A stretch of DNA of 64,000 bases from Psychroflexus torquis ATCC 700755. Lineage in GTDB: Bacteria; Bacteroidota; Bacteroidia; Flavobacteriales; Flavobacteriaceae. The stretch spans positions 620,001-684,000 of the forward strand of contig NC_018721.1 in the NCBI RefSeq assembly GCF_000153485.2. Direction: 5' to 3'. Below, in pieces: positions 29,353 through 57,570 of the stretch. Made by a program: the position numbers and the translations under genes. Positions within the stretch are counted from its first letter, which is position 1; the number at the start of each line of letters is the position of its first letter. The notes below the pieces were generated by a model. It saw only the letters and a program-made list of their open reading frames with translations, did not search any database and was not told where the DNA came from.

Positions 29353-31557
29353 ATGACTATTGAAGAAATCTATAAAAAAGGAGAAATAAGTATTCGATCT
29401 TATAATGTTTGTCAGAATAACAAACTTTATTCTATTTCGGATTTAAATAAATATTACTACCAAAATAAATCTTTTCATGATCTACATAATTGTGGGAGAA
29501 GGTCAAATGAGGAATTAGTTGGGATATTTAACAAACATCAAAAAGAAAAACTTGAAGAGCTTGGAATTGAAACCCAAAAAGAAAAACCAATTTTTAAAAT
29601 AATTTTAGGACTGACAAGAGTTCAAAGAGAAGTAATTAATAGCTTAATTCTTGTGAATACTAAAAGCTTATCAGTGAGAAGCAGGAATGCAATATCATCG
29701 TACTTAAAAGGTAAGTTTACGATTAAATATTTTGCTGAGAAAATGTTACTTTCTGATAATTTCAATGTTAGTAAAATAAAGAATGTTGGGGCTAAATGTG
29801 TTCCTGAATTAGACAAATATATTTCTTCAATTAAAGGTTCTTTAGTTGAGGTATCTGAAACAAAAGATGAAAATTTTTTAATTGCATTAAAGAATAGATT
29901 TTTAATACAGCGTACTTATTTAAATTTAGATATACCAACTGAGATCCTTGAGTCAGAATCAATTTTTTTATTTGTAGATTATTTGGTGAGTGTAAATGCT
30001 CTTTTTAATCAAATTCAAACTGAAATATTTAAAAAATCATTTAAAATATACAAAAACCAAAAGGAGCTCACTTTAGATGAAATAGCAAAAGAAGTCGGGC
30101 TTTCAGCGGAAAGAGTGAGGCAAAGAAAAAAAGGGTTATTAGATGAGGTTTTTAATAAGCTATTGTTCACACAAAACTTCAATGATGATTTGTTCCAAAA
30201 ATACAACCTAGATATTACTTCAAACCATTTGGATGTAAATATGGATATAGTTGAAATAATTAACTCAAAAAATAAAACTAATTTATCTAAACAATTTATT
30301 ACTTATATACTATTTGCCTATTTATCTAATAGTTTTGCCTTAGTTGGAAATGTTGAAGATGTATTTCAACCAAAATACTTTAATGCCAGTAACAGGTATA
30401 ATTGGATAAATTTCTACATAATAAAAAAAGAACTGGTTTATGAAATTGATTTTAATGCTTTATTAAATGATATCGAAAGCAGAATAAATAATAAGATTGA
30501 AGAAACATATACTTTTAATTTTAAAAGTTATTTGTCAAAATTTTTAACTGACAACCAGATTAAAAGCCTGAACTTAATATTTCCAATTGCTGAAAAAATA
30601 ATTAATGATGAATTTGAATTATATCTAGATTTATATGAAAATATAATATTTAAAAGAAACACTGCAAGGCAAGTACACGAATACACATATGAGGCTCTTG
30701 AAGAATTAGGAAAGCCATCAAAAGTTAAAGTGATTTTTGAAAAGGTCATAGAACTTCATCCAAATTATGAAACAGAAGAAGCAAAAATCAGATCTTCTTT
30801 GAAACGCAGAAATGGCTTTATCTCTATTGGCAGAAAAAGTGTACACGGATTAAAAAAATGGGAAGATGAATTAGTAAATTTCAAGGGTGGTACAATAAGG
30901 AATATTGTAAAAGAGTATTTATCACTTTCTCCCACGCCAAAACATATTTCAGATATAACGGAATTCGTTTTAAAATATCGACCAAAATCTAATCAAAATA
31001 GTATTTTACAAAATTTAAAGCTTGATGAATCTGGTTTATATGTTTTTTTTAAAGGTTCAAATATTGGATTAAAATCAAAAAAATATCAAGCTGATTTCAT
31101 GAAAATACCAGATGTTAAAAAGCCTGAAAAAAAGACTTGGCAAGAAAGATTTGAAATGCTTGATAATTTTACAGCAATACAAAAAAGGCAACCCTGTTCA
31201 ACTGGAGTTCCTCCAAAAGAAATTAAGTTGTACCGCTGGCTTAATGTTCAAAAAAATAAACTAAATAAAGGTAAACTTGATAAAGATAAAGAAGAAGAAT
31301 TAAATAATTTACTTAAAAAACATCCAAGTATAAATGGTAAGCGTAAAGTGAACTCAAACGAAAAATACGAAGAACTAATTTCATTTGTTTCAACTAACCA
31401 TAGACTACCATCAGTAAGTAAAAATGGGGAAGAAAATTTATATCACTTTCTTTACAAACAACGTAAACTTTTTGATGCAAACGAACTTAATAGTAAAGAA
31501 GAAAATAAATTTATCGAAGTTGCAAAGCTTCATCAAAATATAAAATATGAAAATTAA
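29353..31557 (+). CDS. Multidomain DNA-binding protein: two RpoA-CTD-like domains, sigma region 4-like HTH, winged helices, helicase-associated repeats
   Basis: The 734-residue protein begins with two helix-hairpin-helix domains like the C-terminal domain of RNA polymerase alpha. The first spans about 3-57 and contains ISIRSYNVCQ and LHNCGRRSNEEL; the second spans about 95-155 and contains SVRSRNAISSYL and IKNVGAKCVPEL. Residues 239-262 form a sigma-70 region 4-like HTH (TLDEIAKEVGLSAERVRQRK). Two winged-helix-like units follow (about 446-515 and 516-590). The tail (about 600-734) holds two helicase-associated-type repeats (ERFEMLDNF..., YEELISFVSTNHRLPS). No enzymatic motif was seen. It is the first gene of a five-gene overlapping run with dndD- and dndE-like genes. 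A role in target recognition or regulation is inferred. Confidence 0.75.
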   Translation: MTIEEIYKKGEISIRSYNVCQNNKLYSISDLNKYYYQNKSFHDLHNCGRRSNEELVGIFNKHQKEKLEELGIETQKEKPIFKIILGLTRVQREVINSLILVNTKSLSVRSRNAISSYLKGKFTIKYFAEKMLLSDNFNVSKIKNVGAKCVPELDKYISSIKGSLVEVSETKDENFLIALKNRFLIQRTYLNLDIPTEILESESIFLFVDYLVSVNALFNQIQTEIFKKSFKIYKNQKELTLDEIAKEVGLSAERVRQRKKGLLDEVFNKLLFTQNFNDDLFQKYNLDITSNHLDVNMDIVEIINSKNKTNLSKQFITYILFAYLSNSFALVGNVEDVFQPKYFNASNRYNWINFYIIKKELVYEIDFNALLNDIESRINNKIEETYTFNFKSYLSKFLTDNQIKSLNLIFPIAEKIINDEFELYLDLYENIIFKRNTARQVHEYTYEALEELGKPSKVKVIFEKVIELHPNYETEEAKIRSSLKRRNGFISIGRKSVHGLKKWEDELVNFKGGTIRNIVKEYLSLSPTPKHISDITEFVLKYRPKSNQNSILQNLKLDESGLYVFFKGSNIGLKSKKYQADFMKIPDVKKPEKKTWQERFEMLDNFTAIQKRQPCSTGVPPKEIKLYRWLNVQKNKLNKGKLDKDKEEELNNLLKKHPSINGKRKVNSNEKYEELISFVSTNHRLPSVSKNGEENLYHFLYKQRKLFDANELNSKEENKFIEVAKLHQNIKYEN

Positions 31558-31729
31558 AGAAACTAAATTATCACAACTCCATGAGCTTAATAAAATATGC
31601 GATGATAATGGTGTCGATTTTGACTCACTTAAGGCACTATTAGACTCTCTTAAAACAAAGAAATTACTTTCGAAAAAAAACTATCATCAGCAATCCATAG
31701 ACGACACTATAAATAAAGCAATAAAATGA
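31547..31729 (+). CDS. Small protein of Dnd-like cluster (DNA modification system-associated small protein-like)
   Basis: The 60-residue helical protein begins MKIKETKLSQLHELNKICDD and continues with a leucine-patterned FDSLKALLDSLK, a KK pair and an amphipathic C-terminus (IDDTINKAIK). The pattern resembles short proteins of about 60-70 residues known to sit beside dndD-type genes, but I cannot confirm homology here. It overlaps the upstream gene by 11 bp and the dndD-like gene by 4 bp (ATGA), so it is translated in coupling with both. A cofactor or adaptor role is inferred from context only. Confidence 0.65.
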   Translation: MKIKETKLSQLHELNKICDDNGVDFDSLKALLDSLKTKKLLSKKNYHQQSIDDTINKAIK

Positions 31730-33828
31730 AATTCTCAAACGTTGAAATAAATAATTTCAGGCAATATTATGATAAAGTTAAAATAGACCTGACAACTAGT
31801 ACTGATCAAAACATTATATTAATTGGTGGTAAAAATGGTTATGGTAAAACAAACTTTTTAATTTCAGTAGTTTGGTGCTTGTATGGCAAATTAATAGAAA
31901 AGGTTGATGATAATTTTAAACAAGAAATAAGAAAAGAAAAAAACTATTCATCTTTTATGCAACAGTCCATTAACTGGACTGCAAAAAAAGAAAATAAAGA
32001 TACTTTTTCGGTAAGTCTAATAATTTCAGAAATTGAATTACCTGAATTAAATCAATTCAAATCAAATTCGGGATGCGTTAAAATTACTAGAAATTTTAAC
32101 GTTAGTACTATGGATGAGCAGCTTTCTATTTTAGATCCAATTTCAAATATTGAGGTTTTTGATGATGAAACTGATAAAATCAATTTTATAAATGATTATA
32201 TTATTCCAATAGATGCTGCAAAATTTGTCTTTTTTGATGCGGAAAAAATCTCTGAAATAGCCAATCTATCAATTAAAGAAGAAGGAGGTTTCATTAATGA
32301 TGCTTTAGGTAAAGTTTTAGGATTAGATATTTACGACACAATGATTGAAGATTTCGAGTTTTATATAAATTCTCTTAAAAAAGAAGGAGCTACTAAAAAT
32401 TTACAAGAACAAATTGTAGATAAGGAAAAGGCTATTCAGCTTTCTAACATAGATATAGACGGTCTTGAAGAAGAAAATGCAGAAAAACTTAAAGAAATAG
32501 ATGACTTAAAAAAGACAATAAGGCAATATAACAACCTAATATCTGAACATAGCAAACAGGGAAATTCGACTTTTGACAGAGAATCTATCATAACAGAAAT
32601 GGAAAAATTAAAAGAAAAAGAATTTGGACTTTCTCAAAAATTTACTGAATTAAGTGAGATTATTCCATTAACAATACTGACTGGAAAACTTGAAGAAGTT
32701 AATGAGCATCTTGAAATTCAACAAAAAAATGAATTATCACAAATTTCATCAAGAGAAAATTCTGAAAAAATAGAAAATTTTATTGAACTTCTATTTAACA
32801 AACCGCCTGAACCAGATAATTCTAGTATATCCCTTAGAGATAAACTTTTCTATTACGAGAAAGCTCAGAATTTGGGTTCAGAATTATTTAATAGCACTGA
32901 AGATTATATGCAACTAGAATTTGAACACGATCTTAATAATGCTGAAAAGAATTTAATTTCAGATTCTATAAACCTTGTTAGTTCACAATCAAAAGATTTA
33001 CTTGAGAAAACGATTGAAGAATTTAATGAAGTGAAAAATAAATTTTCTGACCTAAATAAGGCTTTGAGCAAGGTTGATGCTGACTTAGAAGATGAACTTA
33101 TTTTAGATTATTCTTCAAAGAAGGAAACCGCTGAATATAGAAGTGACCAACTCAAAGATGTGATTGGTAGAAATAAGCAAAAAACTGAAAGATTAAAAGA
33201 TAATATTATTCGTTTTAATCAACAGCTTTCTTTATTGGTTAAAAAAGTTGATGTAAACGCTCAAAACAAGCTTAAAATCAAAGAAAGTCAGAAATATATC
33301 AACGTATTAAACTCATTCCTTGAAAAACAGAAAGCTAAACATAAAGATACTTTAGAAAAATTGATTTTAAGTGAGTTGAAAATATTGATGCACAAACTTG
33401 GTAGCGATGAAAACATTAGTAAATTTATTGAGGATGTAAAAGTTACTATTTTAGCCTCAGGACAAGGGATGAAAATCACATTGTTAGATCAAGATGATAG
33501 CGAAATTAGGAAAGAGAGTCTGTCGTCTGGTGAAAAACAGATATATATATCTTGTTTAATAAAAGCAATATTAAACGAGTCAATTAACAGTTTACCTATT
33601 TTTATTGACACACCTCTTGGAAGACTCGACGAAGAGCATAGAGATAATATTACTAAAAAATATTATCCAGCACTTTCACAACAAGTAGTTTTATTTTCTA
33701 CTAATAGTGAAATTACTCCAAAACGCTATAAAGATATATTAAATAATATTTCAAAGTCTTATCTACTAGTTAATGATGGAGCAAACACTAATTTAAAAAC
33801 AGGTTATTATCAAGGCTATGAGAATTAA
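31726..33828 (+). CDS. DndD-like SMC/Rad50-type ATPase
   Basis: The 700-residue protein has ABC-type heads split by coiled coils. Walker A is GGKNGYGKTN (about 34-43). The ABC signature is LSSGEKQ (599-605), Walker B is LPIFIDTP (about 623-630) and the D-loop is GRLDEEH. Coiled coils span roughly 200-290 and 410-560. The closing stretch TPLGRLDEEHRDNI and LFSTNSEITPKRY match DndD of the phosphorothioation system. No CxxC zinc hook is present between the coils. DndD is an ATPase needed for sulfur insertion, but here no dndC or dndA accompanies it, so the activity may differ. It overlaps the next gene by 11 bp. Confidence 0.82.
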   Translation: MKFSNVEINNFRQYYDKVKIDLTTSTDQNIILIGGKNGYGKTNFLISVVWCLYGKLIEKVDDNFKQEIRKEKNYSSFMQQSINWTAKKENKDTFSVSLIISEIELPELNQFKSNSGCVKITRNFNVSTMDEQLSILDPISNIEVFDDETDKINFINDYIIPIDAAKFVFFDAEKISEIANLSIKEEGGFINDALGKVLGLDIYDTMIEDFEFYINSLKKEGATKNLQEQIVDKEKAIQLSNIDIDGLEEENAEKLKEIDDLKKTIRQYNNLISEHSKQGNSTFDRESIITEMEKLKEKEFGLSQKFTELSEIIPLTILTGKLEEVNEHLEIQQKNELSQISSRENSEKIENFIELLFNKPPEPDNSSISLRDKLFYYEKAQNLGSELFNSTEDYMQLEFEHDLNNAEKNLISDSINLVSSQSKDLLEKTIEEFNEVKNKFSDLNKALSKVDADLEDELILDYSSKKETAEYRSDQLKDVIGRNKQKTERLKDNIIRFNQQLSLLVKKVDVNAQNKLKIKESQKYINVLNSFLEKQKAKHKDTLEKLILSELKILMHKLGSDENISKFIEDVKVTILASGQGMKITLLDQDDSEIRKESLSSGEKQIYISCLIKAILNESINSLPIFIDTPLGRLDEEHRDNITKKYYPALSQQVVLFSTNSEITPKRYKDILNNISKSYLLVNDGANTNLKTGYYQGYEN

Positions 33829-35395
33829 AATAAGTAAAGAAAATGACGAGTTGTTATACAAGCTAAAAACATTATACAACTTTAAAAGTGAGGGTATAGT
33901 TCCTAGAATTGCATTTTCAAACAGTTTGTTATTAGGTAAAATATTTGATGCTGAAAAAGATGTTATTCCTAACTCTGACGGCAAAGAATTTCGAGATGAT
34001 AAAGCTATTTTTGGAAATGTTATAGGAAATGTCTCGAATACAATAATTTTTAAATCAGTTCTTGACCAACATTATGGTAGAAATACTTTTGAAGATGAAT
34101 TCATAAAATTATTTAAGCTTCATCTGAACCACGGTTTAGATATTTGGAATACTAAAATTGAAAAAGCTAACATATCCAAAGGTGACCACATTGACATTCT
34201 TTTAAAAGTTGTTAAAAACGGACTTGATTTGAGAAAAAGAATTGTCAAAACAAATGGCTCATCTAGTAACAAAAATATCAAAGAATTCAAAAGTCTATTA
34301 ACCTTTGATTTAGGTAAAACGGAAGAAGGTGAAAATATTAAAATTAGAATTAATGATTTAAGAGAGTTTGATAATAGAAATATTGCAATTGCTGGAATGG
34401 CAGGCTCTGGTAAAACACAATTAATTAAAGATATTTTATATCAAATTTCAAAAAACACAAACAATGAGCTAAAGTTCATTTTTTTTGACTATAAAGGAGA
34501 AGGGAATCCAGAGCAGTTAAAACCTTTTTTGGATGCTACTCAATGTAAATTTGTCGATATTGTGAACGATGGAGGAATTGAGTTTAATCCATTTTTATCT
34601 ATAAACCTTGACGAAAGACAAAAACCCTTTAGTATTCGGGCTTTTGTTGATACTGTATCTACTTTTGTTCCTAAAATGGGTGTTAGCCAAGAAAATATTT
34701 TAATTACTCTCATTAATAATTTGCTTGACAGAAAAAATGGTAGTTATCCAACAATTTTAGAATTGTTTGAGGAATTAGAAAACTACTACGAAGAAAATAA
34801 CATAAAACTAGATACTTTATATTCTATCGTACGTGATTTATCTACGAATGTTTTCAATTGTAATACTAAAAACCCTAATATTCTAGATAAAAGTTTATAC
34901 ATTAATCTTCCTCCAGCTCTATCTGACACATTAAGACAGTTAGTTGTGTTTTTATTATTGAGGTATTATAATTCTTATTTTAGTTCAACGAACGATTGTG
35001 AGCCGAAAGATAATATTTTCCCTTTACGCTATGTAATTGTTATTGATGAAGCTCACATCTATTTAAAAAATAAAAATGCACGTAAAGCGCTTGAAGAACT
35101 ATTGAGACTTTTAAGATCAAAAGGAGTAATTATTGTAATGCTTTCTCAAGGTGTTGAGGATTATAAAACCAAAGACTTTGATTTTGTATCACAAGTGAAA
35201 CTACCAATTTGTTTAAATGTTCAGAATAAAGACTATAAAGCGATTAGTAATTTCGTTGGAACACCAAGTAGTAAATACAAATTAGAGTCGGAAATTAAAA
35301 AATTAGAATCAGGGAAAGGGTTAATAAATATTGGAGAACCGAAAATAATTGAATTAAGACAATGGTGGAAAACTAAATTAGACGAAAATATATGA
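33818..35395 (+). CDS. DndE domain fused to HerA/FtsK-type ATPase
   Basis: The 525-residue protein combines two families. Residues 1 to about 130 match DndE (DUF1832): MRIKISKENDELLYKLK, SDGKEFRDDKAIFGN and KLHLNHGLDIW. DndE alone is usually 110-130 residues and binds DNA. Residues about 170-520 form a HerA/FtsK-like motor with Walker A GMAGSGKTQ (193-201) and Walker B VIVIDEAH (406-413). These are followed by IVMLSQGVEDY and a C-terminal GKGLINIGEPKIIEL strand typical of HerA-like ATPases. Joining a DNA-binding DndE module to a translocase suggests a DNA-tracking machine. It overlaps the dndD-like gene by 11 bp and the next gene by 4 bp. Confidence 0.8.
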   Translation: MRIKISKENDELLYKLKTLYNFKSEGIVPRIAFSNSLLLGKIFDAEKDVIPNSDGKEFRDDKAIFGNVIGNVSNTIIFKSVLDQHYGRNTFEDEFIKLFKLHLNHGLDIWNTKIEKANISKGDHIDILLKVVKNGLDLRKRIVKTNGSSSNKNIKEFKSLLTFDLGKTEEGENIKIRINDLREFDNRNIAIAGMAGSGKTQLIKDILYQISKNTNNELKFIFFDYKGEGNPEQLKPFLDATQCKFVDIVNDGGIEFNPFLSINLDERQKPFSIRAFVDTVSTFVPKMGVSQENILITLINNLLDRKNGSYPTILELFEELENYYEENNIKLDTLYSIVRDLSTNVFNCNTKNPNILDKSLYINLPPALSDTLRQLVVFLLLRYYNSYFSSTNDCEPKDNIFPLRYVIVIDEAHIYLKNKNARKALEELLRLLRSKGVIIVMLSQGVEDYKTKDFDFVSQVKLPICLNVQNKDYKAISNFVGTPSSKYKLESEIKKLESGKGLINIGEPKIIELRQWWKTKLDENI

Positions 35396-35673
35396 CCTGT
35401 GAGACGTGCAACACAAAATTCAGCTACTTTAAGTTATTAAAATCCTTTTGGTTTGCATATCAAGATATAAAATGTAACCACTGCGATTCAACTTTTGAAC
35501 ATAAGTTATCCAACAGAGTTTTAGGAGGACTCCTCGTAATGATACCAATTTTTATTAGTTTTATGGTTTTCGAAGACAAACCTGTGTTAGTTCCTATCAT
35601 TGGATTTATACTGATGTCTATGGTTTTATCGTTATCCCTACCATTTATCATGAAATTCAGTCGGTTCGATTAA
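35392..35673 (+). CDS. CxxC-x21-CxxC zinc-ribbon membrane protein (TIGR04104-like)
   Basis: The 93-residue protein has two zinc-ribbon knuckles, CETC (3-6) and CNHC (28-31), and then two transmembrane helices (about 47-61 and 66-86). This arrangement matches small cxxc_20_cxxc proteins of Bacteroidota and Firmicutes, whose function is unknown. Its ATG overlaps the stop of the DndE-ATPase gene (ATGA), which makes it the fifth coupled gene of the island. It could be an accessory, or it could be a passenger brought along with the cluster. Confidence 0.65.
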   Translation: MTCETCNTKFSYFKLLKSFWFAYQDIKCNHCDSTFEHKLSNRVLGGLLVMIPIFISFMVFEDKPVLVPIIGFILMSMVLSLSLPFIMKFSRFD

Positions 35674-52253: not shown

Positions 52254-52261
52254 AGTATAAG

Positions 52262-52369
<108 letters not shown>

Positions 52370-52509
52370 AATCATTAAAGTTAATTGAGTACGTCTCAAT
52401 CACCTTTATAAGTAGTCCCAGCTCGTGCGGGAATTCTAATATCGTGACATAGTTAAAGATATATAACAAGATCTTAAGTAAGGATAAAATAAACTAATAA
52501 TCGTCTCAT

Positions 52510-55365
<2,856 letters not shown>

Positions 55366-55450
55366 ATTATTTATTTATTTTACTCTAAAGTACTCTTACT
55401 CCTTAATTAAAAGAAATAATAATTCTCTTACTCTCGTATTCTTATATATC

Positions 55451-55471
55451 TTCAATATGTCAATGAACTTT
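55451..55471 (-). promoter_or_regulatory. 23S leader element shared with the 16S leader
   Basis: These 21 bp (minus strand AAAGTTCATTGACATATTG...) are identical to 57700-57720 in front of the 16S gene. Its position before both large rRNAs suggests a role in antitermination or processing, similar to boxA-type leader elements. That role is inferred. Confidence 0.5.
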
Positions 55472-55677
55472 CAACCCCTTATCAGTCTCCCGAAGGTGAC
55501 AAATAAAAACCATTTACATAAAGTAGATGGTGGAGTATTGTTGTAATATCTAAAACCAATTAGATACTACTTGTTTTATATTATAAGTGGGTGTCTATTG
55601 TCTTCATGACTGTTTACATTACATGCATACTGTCAATATGAATAAATAATAATCTCAGATAAACTCCCTTCGACTTA

Positions 55678-55849
55678 GTAGTCTCAGGCAACTCCCTTCG
55701 ATACGCTCTTTTTATAAAAAAAGTAGCTACTCAGGATAAACTTCTCGTCTTCCCTCGACTTAAGTAGTCTCAGGCAACTCCCTTCGATATGCTCCTTTTA
55801 AAAAAAAAGAGCTACTCAGGATAAACTTCTCGTCTTCCCTCGACTTAAG
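55678..55849. repeat. 86-bp tandem repeat containing the 3' end of tRNA-Ile
   Basis: Two near-identical units of 86 and 85 bp (55679-55764 and 55765-55849) begin TAGTCTCAGGCAACTCCCTTC and end CCCTCGACTTAAG. They differ mainly in the central A/T run and by one C-to-T change. The first 12 bases (TAGTCTCAGGCA) equal the 3' end of the tRNA-Ile gene that follows at 55850, so the true tRNA end is a third, partial copy. A shortened version of the unit's tail occurs at 55653-55677. Each unit also holds a GCTC...GAGC inverted repeat around a poly-A/T core. Confidence 0.8.
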
Positions 55850-55923
55850 TAGTCTCAGGCAGACTCGAACTGCCGACCTCTACATTATCAGTGTAGCGCT
55901 CTAACCAGCTGAGCTATGAGACT
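55850..55923 (-). tRNA. tRNA-Ile (GAT)
   Basis: On the minus strand the acceptor AGTCTCA (55923-55917) pairs with TGAGACT, with discriminator A at 55850. The D-arm is GCTCAGCTGGTTAGAGC. The anticodon loop CTGATAA has anticodon GAT and lies on stem CTACA/TGTAG; the T-arm is GTTCGAGTC. CCA is not encoded. It is the only tRNA in the operon. Confidence 0.95.
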
Positions 55924-56045
55924 GTAGACCTTATAATAATATTAAATTGACAACTAGAAACATCAAAAGCAACTTTACTACTAAAGTCTTAATGATTCCC
56001 TTTAAAAAAGCATCTATTACATTTTATCAAATGCAATACTCTAAA

Positions 56046-57570
<1,525 letters not shown>

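Follow-up and report, generated by a model that had tools for sequence, protein, structure and literature searches.

The locus and its genes

Components of the Dnd DNA phosphorothioation machinery are combined with a HerA-type ATPase in a group of overlapping genes in the chromosome of Psychroflexus torquis ATCC 700755, a member of the Flavobacteriaceae. The group lies within an analyzed stretch of 64,000 nucleotides, here called the window (contig NC_018721.1, positions 620,001 to 684,000), and comprises five overlapping intact frames, g1 to g5, on the forward strand at window positions 29353..35673. A preliminary description had presented them as a five-gene Dnd-like island without dndA, dndB or dndC, and the coordinates and frames it gave hold. 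As judged from comparison of sequences, the first four genes (29353-35395) are a conserved, mobile cassette derived from a DndC-DndD-DndE:HerA phosphorothioation operon, in which the catalytic body of DndC has been lost and its DndD-docking domain retained as a gene of its own.

29353..31557, forward strand: g1, 734 residues, DNA-binding multidomain protein with Pfam matches, probably the target-recognition subunit
31547..31729, forward strand: g2, 60 residues, matching PF20306 (Sp-DndD) above cut-off and almost certainly the free-standing C-terminal DndD-docking domain of DndC
31726..33828, forward strand: g3, 700 residues, DndD ABC/Rad50-like ATPase (TIGR03185, 270 bits, cut-off 245.85)
33818..35395, forward strand: g4, 525 residues, DndE:HerA fusion (PF08870 and HerA/VirB4)
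35392..35673, forward strand: g5, CxxC zinc-finger membrane protein (TIGR04104, 60.8 bits, cut-off 45)

The initial assignments of a DndD-like ATPase, a DndE-HerA/FtsK fusion and a CxxC membrane protein agree with these family matches. The extent of the island does need revision, as g1 to g4 recur elsewhere as a unit and g5 has no homologue in any of 35 related loci (L005-L039, below), on which ground it was rejected as a cassette member; it is probably a local passenger.

The 60-residue protein as the C-terminal domain of DndC

The related loci come from a one-per-species genome collection that was scanned with two DndE:HerA peptide patterns, relatives without those peptides being missed. Among the 53 loci found, 35 (L005-L039) hold close relatives of the window cassette. 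The order g1-g2-g3-g4 with no full-length DndC, referred to as tail-only, is present in 29 of them (L005-L016, L018-L030, L035, L036, L038 and L039), making 30 with the window; a full DndC is present in four (L031-L034), and two others (L017, L037) are cut by contig ends.

On its own, the window g2 reaches 29.1 bits with PF20306 (cut-off 27.2) and has a weak match, E 0.016, to the very end (397-446 of 447) of the DndC model TIGR03183. The 30 g2 sequences taken together are more telling. When a hidden Markov model (HMM) built from them was run against 6172 open reading frames (ORFs) at E <= 10, the only proteins longer than 150 residues to match were DndCs, every one at its last ~57 residues; of the DndC ORFs in the set, 15 distinct ones, eight were found (L031 at 8e-12, L032 at 4e-7, L033 at 1e-6, L034 at 4e-6, L098 at 2e-4, and L099-L101 at 1e-3 to 3e-3). 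Alignment of the g2 profile with one of 14 DndCs (hhalign) gave a probability of 96.8% and E 2.4e-10, with g2 covering the DndC tail end to end. At E <= 0.05, TIGR03183, an independent NCBI DndC model, matches 16/30 g2 (best 3.4e-4) and NF005316 matches 24/30 (best 2.1e-4); the level expected by chance can be gauged from 11 other families that match one to three members each. PF20306 itself matches all 30 g2, two of the 14 DndCs weakly (best 0.0015), and is precomputed on 10 of 120 listed DndCs. Gene order is pertinent too: in L031, L033 and L034, where the order is g1-DndC-DndD-DndE:HerA, a full DndC with its PP-loop and cysteines kept occupies the slot of g2, while L032 has DndC with g1 absent and DndD broken. 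It is almost certain on this evidence that g2 is the C-terminal domain of DndC encoded alone, and an unrelated or disordered small protein is ruled out by the match of its whole length to DndC. The statement that DndC is absent from the window accordingly stands for the catalytic body and not for the C-terminal domain, which is present as the 60-residue gene.

The part played by this domain in DndC has been addressed in work on the phosphorothioation system. The window g2 aligns with residues 426-487 of an Escherichia coli DndC (L169, 544 residues), whose C146, C262, C273, C280, C283, L458, E462 and R471 agree with those of the 540-residue DndC studied by Fu et al. 2025 (PMC12193691). There the DndD head is predicted to hold DndC residues 433-482, with the last helix of DndC on coiled coil 1 of DndD, the triple substitution L458D/E462A/R471A abolishes DndD binding in pull-downs, and coiled coil 2 of DndD binds DndE. 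Earlier co-purification (2015, PMC4611135) indicated that the DndC-DndD contact is direct, that DndD is not soluble on its own and that, without DndC, DndDE precipitates within an hour. The column of L458 (Leu31 of g2) is Leu in 30/30 g2 and 20/21 DndCs, and g2 would be expected to bind DndD. Retention of a docking domain after loss of the enzyme would be understandable if DndD remained a working machine, given the insolubility of DndD by itself and the precipitation of DndDE lacking DndC.

Carrier genomes, hosts and neighbors

The P. torquis genome is complete (one contig, 4,321,832 bp) and yields no DndC at E <= 0.001 and no match to PF14072 for DndB, so that the lack of DndB first seen in the window extends to the whole genome and no full dndABC set is located elsewhere in it. 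Its one DndE is that of g4, and g3 is its one DndD-type ATPase, together with two weak matches of 21-24 bits; among the three of ten first-look candidates that were scored, there was no second g4/DndH-like match. (Housekeeping cysteine desulfurases able to serve in the DndA/IscS role are to be expected in the host.) When the genome of every one of the 35 loci was searched for DndC, matches above cut-off came from five, those of L031-L034 and that of L030, where DndC is on another contig; the genome of L017 has a weak partial match below cut-off. Of the 30 tail-only carrier genomes, 29 (that of the window and 28 of the 29 others) yield no DndC above the family cut-off, many of the carriers being drafts or bins of unstated completeness. 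It is very likely that phosphorothioate is absent.

An arrangement raised at the outset, in which the cassette is a restriction or accessory half and DndC with its partners modifies the same, still phosphorothioated, DNA from elsewhere, would suit the L030 genome. It does not survive for P. torquis, with its zero DndC, zero DndB and single DndE, unless an unrecognizable sulfurtransferase exists, and it is unsupported in the 28 other carriers lacking a DndC over cut-off; as a general account it is extremely improbable.

The hosts of the 35 loci belong to the Bacteroidota, apart from a Desulfococcaceae genome and a bin labelled as Patescibacteria. Among 395 genomes from the class of P. torquis there are nine full-length DndE:HerA genes and a broken one, three of the nine being in tail-only loci. 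A g1 homologue opens the operon in 32 of the 35 loci; it is absent from L032, and L017 and L037 are not covered at that position. Around the tail-only loci, a family of ORFs of at least 80 residues recurs in about 4-5 loci at most. Comparison of neighborhoods, one of the checks proposed at the start, consequently gives a constant g1-g2-g3-g4 order in 29 other loci and no widely shared neighbor. The lack of a shared neighbor also bears on whether DndD-DndE:HerA recruits a different modification in place of sulfur, for instance by a methylase acting in trans, as proposed for CxC systems. The account of those systems by Rakesh et al. (PMC10853773) counts in its favor; however, no neighbor family exceeds the above number of loci (distant methylases being outside that search) and the CxxC hook is found in none of 30 g3, window included, so that this explanation is quite unlikely.

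Several other operons came to light in the same scans. L040-L057 were considered as the same system and left out of the counts: L040 encodes a methylase together with a ResIII helicase and an SMC-like ATPase, and DndE has no match in the HerA proteins of L040 and L047, the two that were scanned. With L104-L106 they form a separate recurrent unit of DNA methylase, ResIII-type helicase, SMC-like ATPase and HerA, in Bacteroidota and one Opitutales bin; six of its loci contain in addition a gene of a family identified as RhuM in the member scanned (L042). L097-L103 and L037 are DndC-DndD-DndE:HerA operons, most then followed by an uncharacterized gene of ~150-200 residues; by clustering, five of the eight share a downstream family whose scanned member, in L100, is DndB. 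All three genes are split in one of them (L103:6590-11557), dndC just before the tail, by decay or assembly error. In L107 (6580-7761) a DndC of 393 residues lacks the docking tail and has a DndD-like ATPase and a HerA-like protein as neighbors. The genus Psychroflexus probably includes carriers of ordinary phosphorothioation systems, since a congener (G731, locus L126) carries a DndC-DndD-DndE operon with DndE separate.

Origin, selection and mobility

In a DndD tree of 44 rows, with five separate-DndE loci as root, the DndC-DndD-DndE:HerA loci without g1 (L097-L102) branch first, and a g1-bearing clade (support 100/100) then divides into 29 tail-only rows (100/99) and a group of L030, L031, L033 and L034 (96/87). 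An earlier tree gave a single change, on a branch with support 17 and among long branches. A single loss was not kept as settled, since the better-rooted tree gives two, L030 being grouped with the DndC-bearing L031, L033 and L034; one loss is not rejected (approximately unbiased test, p 0.121). By this phylogeny, one or two losses removed the DndC catalytic body from a DndC-DndD-DndE:HerA phosphorothioation operon, and the docking domain of DndC is kept in 30 loci.

All four genes, g2 included, are under purifying selection, with median ratios of nonsynonymous to synonymous polymorphism (pN/pS) in 17 chosen pairs of 0.35 for g1, 0.24 for g2, 0.09 for g3 and 0.12 for g4. The g1/g2 and g2/g3 overlaps are present in 28 of 28 loci and the g3/g4 overlap in 27 of 28. 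Ongoing decay of a former Dnd operon would explain the missing DndC body and the broken genes of L022, L030, L032, L038 and L103. Set against it are the same order in 30 loci, selection on every gene, and an intact Walker A motif in 30/30 g3 and 27/27 full-length g4, which together leave scarcely any room for decay and bear out the initial argument from intact frames and tight overlaps. The suggestion of a stand-alone DndDE-type module likewise gains from the recurrent order, the selection and the lack of a shared neighbor.

Mobility is illustrated by L005 and L006, an Ichthyenterobacterium/Flavobacterium pair, in which a 6.2-kb unit ending at the g4 stop codon is 95.5% identical and the flanks are unmatched. 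Plasmid and phage collections contain no match to g4, and carriage by plasmid or phage was rejected on that basis. In P. torquis the island has a GC content of 27-29% versus 32-42% in the nearest flanks. Both flanks had been taken for ordinary chromosome. Only the right one is syntenic chromosome, its dapD-ruvX-def-hypothetical block being shared by all eight congeners fetched, of 26 searched. In the nearest congener the gene next after the right-flank block has its counterpart here at G000:C1:3416917 (3.42 Mb), ~2.8 Mb along the contig, which places the cassette at a synteny break (window 36254), pointing to rearrangement. Farther along, a complete ribosomal RNA operon (16S, tRNA-Ile GAT, 23S, 5S; window 52260-57569, reverse strand) accounts for the rise in GC content at 52-58 kb.

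Exchange of DNA-reading modules

The DNA-reading parts of the cassette are in g1 and in the DndE domain of g4, and their domains are as follows.

29383..29520, forward strand: g1 residues 11-56, first RpoA-CTD-like (helix-hairpin-helix) repeat (PF03118, E 0.0014, below cut-off)
29650..29847, forward strand: g1 residues 100-165, second RpoA-CTD-like repeat (hhalign to the first repeat, probability 95.5%, E 1.5e-8)
30013..30132, forward strand: g1 residues 221-260, sigma-70 region 4-like helix-turn-helix (PF04545, 28.3 bits, cut-off 24.1)
30673..31092, forward strand: g1 residues 441-580, two probable winged-helix (HARE-like) domains, assigned in the window from the alignment
31129..31311, forward strand: g1 residues 593-653, helicase-associated (HA) repeat (PF03457, 2.2e-10, two stretches reported)
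33821..34153, forward strand: g4 residues 2-112, DndE domain (PF08870, 43.3 bits, cut-off 25, E 5.3e-11)
34310..35359, forward strand: g4 residues 165-514, HerA/FtsK-type ATPase domain (PADLOC DndH C-terminus, 90 bits)

PF03118 passes its cut-off in the g1 homologues of L020, L027 and L030, and PF05066 (HARE-HTH) does so in that of L030. The C-termini of g1 vary: some loci have HA repeats there, and L030 has a homing-endonuclease-associated repeat. The original view of g1 as an RpoA-CTD/sigma4-like protein is sustained, with sigma-70 region 4 above and the RpoA-CTD-like match below cut-off, and the HA domain is in addition. In g3 the Walker A, signature and Walker B motifs are present. The DndE domain, a double ribbon-helix-helix in fold (PMC10853773), scores 23.9 bits in g4 with the stand-alone DndE model TIGR03184, below the cut-off of 71.85. 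Only the last ~380 positions of DndH (1325-1708 of 1715) are covered by g4, and the sole PDB chain found for g4 by sequence is 7es4 (E 4.7e-13), DptH, the DndH of the restriction side.

Thirteen g1 pairs were compared for exchange of modules. L007 and L018 have 65-85% identity across the two alpha-CTD-like repeats and the sigma region 4, and 71% in the middle; from the winged helices on, the values are 38%, 45% and 26% (63% gaps). L018-L014 and L019-L020 have a similar pattern, in L005-L027 divergence is confined to the extreme C-terminus, and window-L005 and L016-L005 have no such pattern. In g4, the first 150 residues (DndE) are 38-58% identical and the remainder 66-100% for L005 with L016 and for L018 with L014. 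The DndE alleles, compared in six pairs, are distributed so that L016 and L014 share one (94-98%) and L005, L018 and the window another. These alignments indicate that the C-terminal half of g1 and the DndE domain are exchanged between some close cassettes, with the motors and the docking domain staying put. Specificity subunits of restriction systems are well known for such exchange, and it is mainly this likeness that points to a role in choosing targets, probably for defense.

The alpha-CTD-like and sigma-4-like domains of g1 could alternatively mean that it acts on transcription, with the cassette a regulator of transcription or chromatin or a silencer of foreign genes. The two RpoA-CTD-like repeats and a sigma region 4 in which ER.RQ (E253 R254 R256 Q257) is invariant in the alignment speak for such a role; the absence of sigma region 2 from the Pfam matches of g1, and the exchange of DndE and g1 modules after the manner of specificity subunits, speak against it, and it is considered unlikely.

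A possible internal start in dndC

The residue of DndC aligned with the start of g2 lies within a variable linker and is Met in 63 of 65 close DndCs, the second most conserved of 69 tail columns; in other DndCs, 25/53 have Met there and nine more have it one column off. When sorted by context, Met is present in 10 of 10 DndE:HerA-linked DndCs (L031-L034, L097-L102) versus 0 of 9 others (L092, L108, L109, L122-L127), rows that are not phylogenetically independent, with two of the nine ambiguous (L122 is truncated at a contig end; in L125 a HerA-like gene lies 1.8 kb from DndD and the Met is one residue off). L103 (broken), L107 (no tail, and a HerA neighbor without proven DndE) and L128-L131 (short, no tail) were dropped from this count. 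Conservation of Met at the position of the g2 start suggests that the DndC tail might already be translated separately from within dndC, as Cas11b is from inside cas8b (PMC11899642). The nucleotide context does not add to this. None of ten sequences upstream of the conserved Met has a Shine-Dalgarno sequence. An A-rich start context was entertained on the basis of an A fraction of 0.485 compared with 0.378 at 228 other internal ATGs (p 0.003; GC content, p 1.7e-4), and was set aside on finding it explained by redrawn synonymous codons (expected A 0.472, p 0.21; GC content, p 0.42).

The same Met could be cited for the reverse course of events, with the small protein coming first and later being fused to a sulfurtransferase to yield DndC. 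However, the domain is present in the DndCs of distant loci (L122-L127, L169) and in the general DndC model, and tail-only loci nest within DndC-bearing ones when the tree is rooted on separate-DndE loci, making that order of events very improbable.

Proposed mode of action

The best overall explanation, to which we assign a probability of roughly 0.6, is that the cassette is a phosphorothioate-free, Rad50-like plus HerA, DNA-scanning defense module that arose from a Dnd operon. Loss of the sulfur chemistry with retention of the DndD-docking domain as its own gene argues that the DndD-DndE machine has a phosphorothioate-independent job. By analogy with the corresponding DndC segment, g2 would bind the DndD head and stabilize or regulate the DndD dimer, and the coiled coil of DndD would be the docking site of DndE:HerA, as it is of DndE in the phosphorothioation system (PMC12193691). 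The exchangeable DNA-binding modules of g1, together with the exchangeable DndE domain, may choose the DNA target. Translocation on duplex DNA is a property of the HerA family, and DndE:HerA would presumably supply the translocase. Such a machine might recognize its target and then loop, pump or block DNA, without phosphorothioate and without a recognized nuclease of its own. The genes and their exchange somewhat favor defense as the function, with phages or plasmids as the most likely opponents.

A number of observations sit poorly with this explanation. Only L458 of the three residues substituted in the pull-downs is kept, the E462 and R471 columns not being E and R in most g2. Broken genes are present in L022, L030 and L038, the L030 genome has the DndC on another contig mentioned above, and that of L038 has a partial DndC match (19.7 bits, below cut-off). 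Motifs as written fail in one of 30 g3 for the signature and one of 30 for Walker B, and in two of 27 g4 for Walker B and seven of 27 for the Q sensor. No nuclease or other effector was recognized among the cassette proteins. Among the first 25 of the 92 families in a PADLOC scan of flanking genes (143 ORFs, 26 loci) are pAgo, methylases, DRT reverse transcriptases and MkoA; since the scan had no control, no defense-island enrichment is claimed.

A bolder extension is that within the dndC of DndE:HerA systems an internal start, Cas11-like, had made the docking domain a distinct subunit beforehand, such that the body of DndC could be deleted, perhaps twice, to leave a phosphorothioate-free and nuclease-free defense machine. 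This is speculative and rather doubtful. If true, a Rad50-like DndD clamp held by the docking subunit, a translocase of the HerA type and exchangeable HsdS-like readers (DndE and the C-terminal half of g1) would stop invading DNA by looping, pumping or roadblock, and not by cutting.

Comparison with known systems

Cas11 from inside cas8 (PMC11899642), where a C-terminal piece of the large subunit serves as a separate small subunit, is a parallel to g2 by analogy only. With canonical DndABCDE the cassette has in common DndD, the DndE domain and the docking domain of DndC; it differs in lacking the DndC catalytic body (PP-loop and cluster cysteines) and DndB, in having g1 in addition, and in the fusion to HerA of DndE, which is stand-alone in the canonical system. 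The HerA domain of g4 resembles the DndH C-terminus of DndFGH, but at 525 residues g4 is not a full-length DndH with restriction endonuclease (DndH 1715 positions). PbeABCD and related CxC-DndE systems (PMC10853773) share a coiled-coil ABC ATPase, a DndE partner and a small protein; in contrast, g3 is a DndD without the CxxC zinc hook (0/30), and beyond g1-g4 the cassette loci have no recurrent gene for an HKD nuclease-SF2 helicase (PbeA).

Close counterparts among the described systems are the clade-3 DndE:HerA/FtsK proteins of Rakesh, Aravind and Krishnan 2024 (PMC10853773), whose survey describes DndE:HerA with a DndD-like ATPase next to it, DndDE dyads in which DndC is missing, and small proteins. 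The DndE-HerA fusion, the adjacent DndD and a HerA related to that of DndH are the same; they were placed there in a subset of phosphorothioate-modification systems, whereas here DndC catalysis is absent. The accessible part of that text mentions no g1-like gene and does not name the small protein as a DndC domain, nor was such a statement found in the literature searched, though its reference 24, outside that coverage, may bear on the matter. DndE:HerA beside DndD was accordingly known already, and what appears new, on the sequence comparisons given above, is g2 as a DndC stub. As the role of DndDE without DndC is left unsettled there, a natural deletion is relevant to it, and this compact set of four genes, for which DndC-bearing sister loci provide matched comparisons, is suited to testing for the phosphorothioate-independent job. 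Sp-DndD (PF20306) is described in Pfam as a small protein of certain Dnd systems, and its identification here as the C-terminal domain of DndC would explain a family so far characterized by that association alone.

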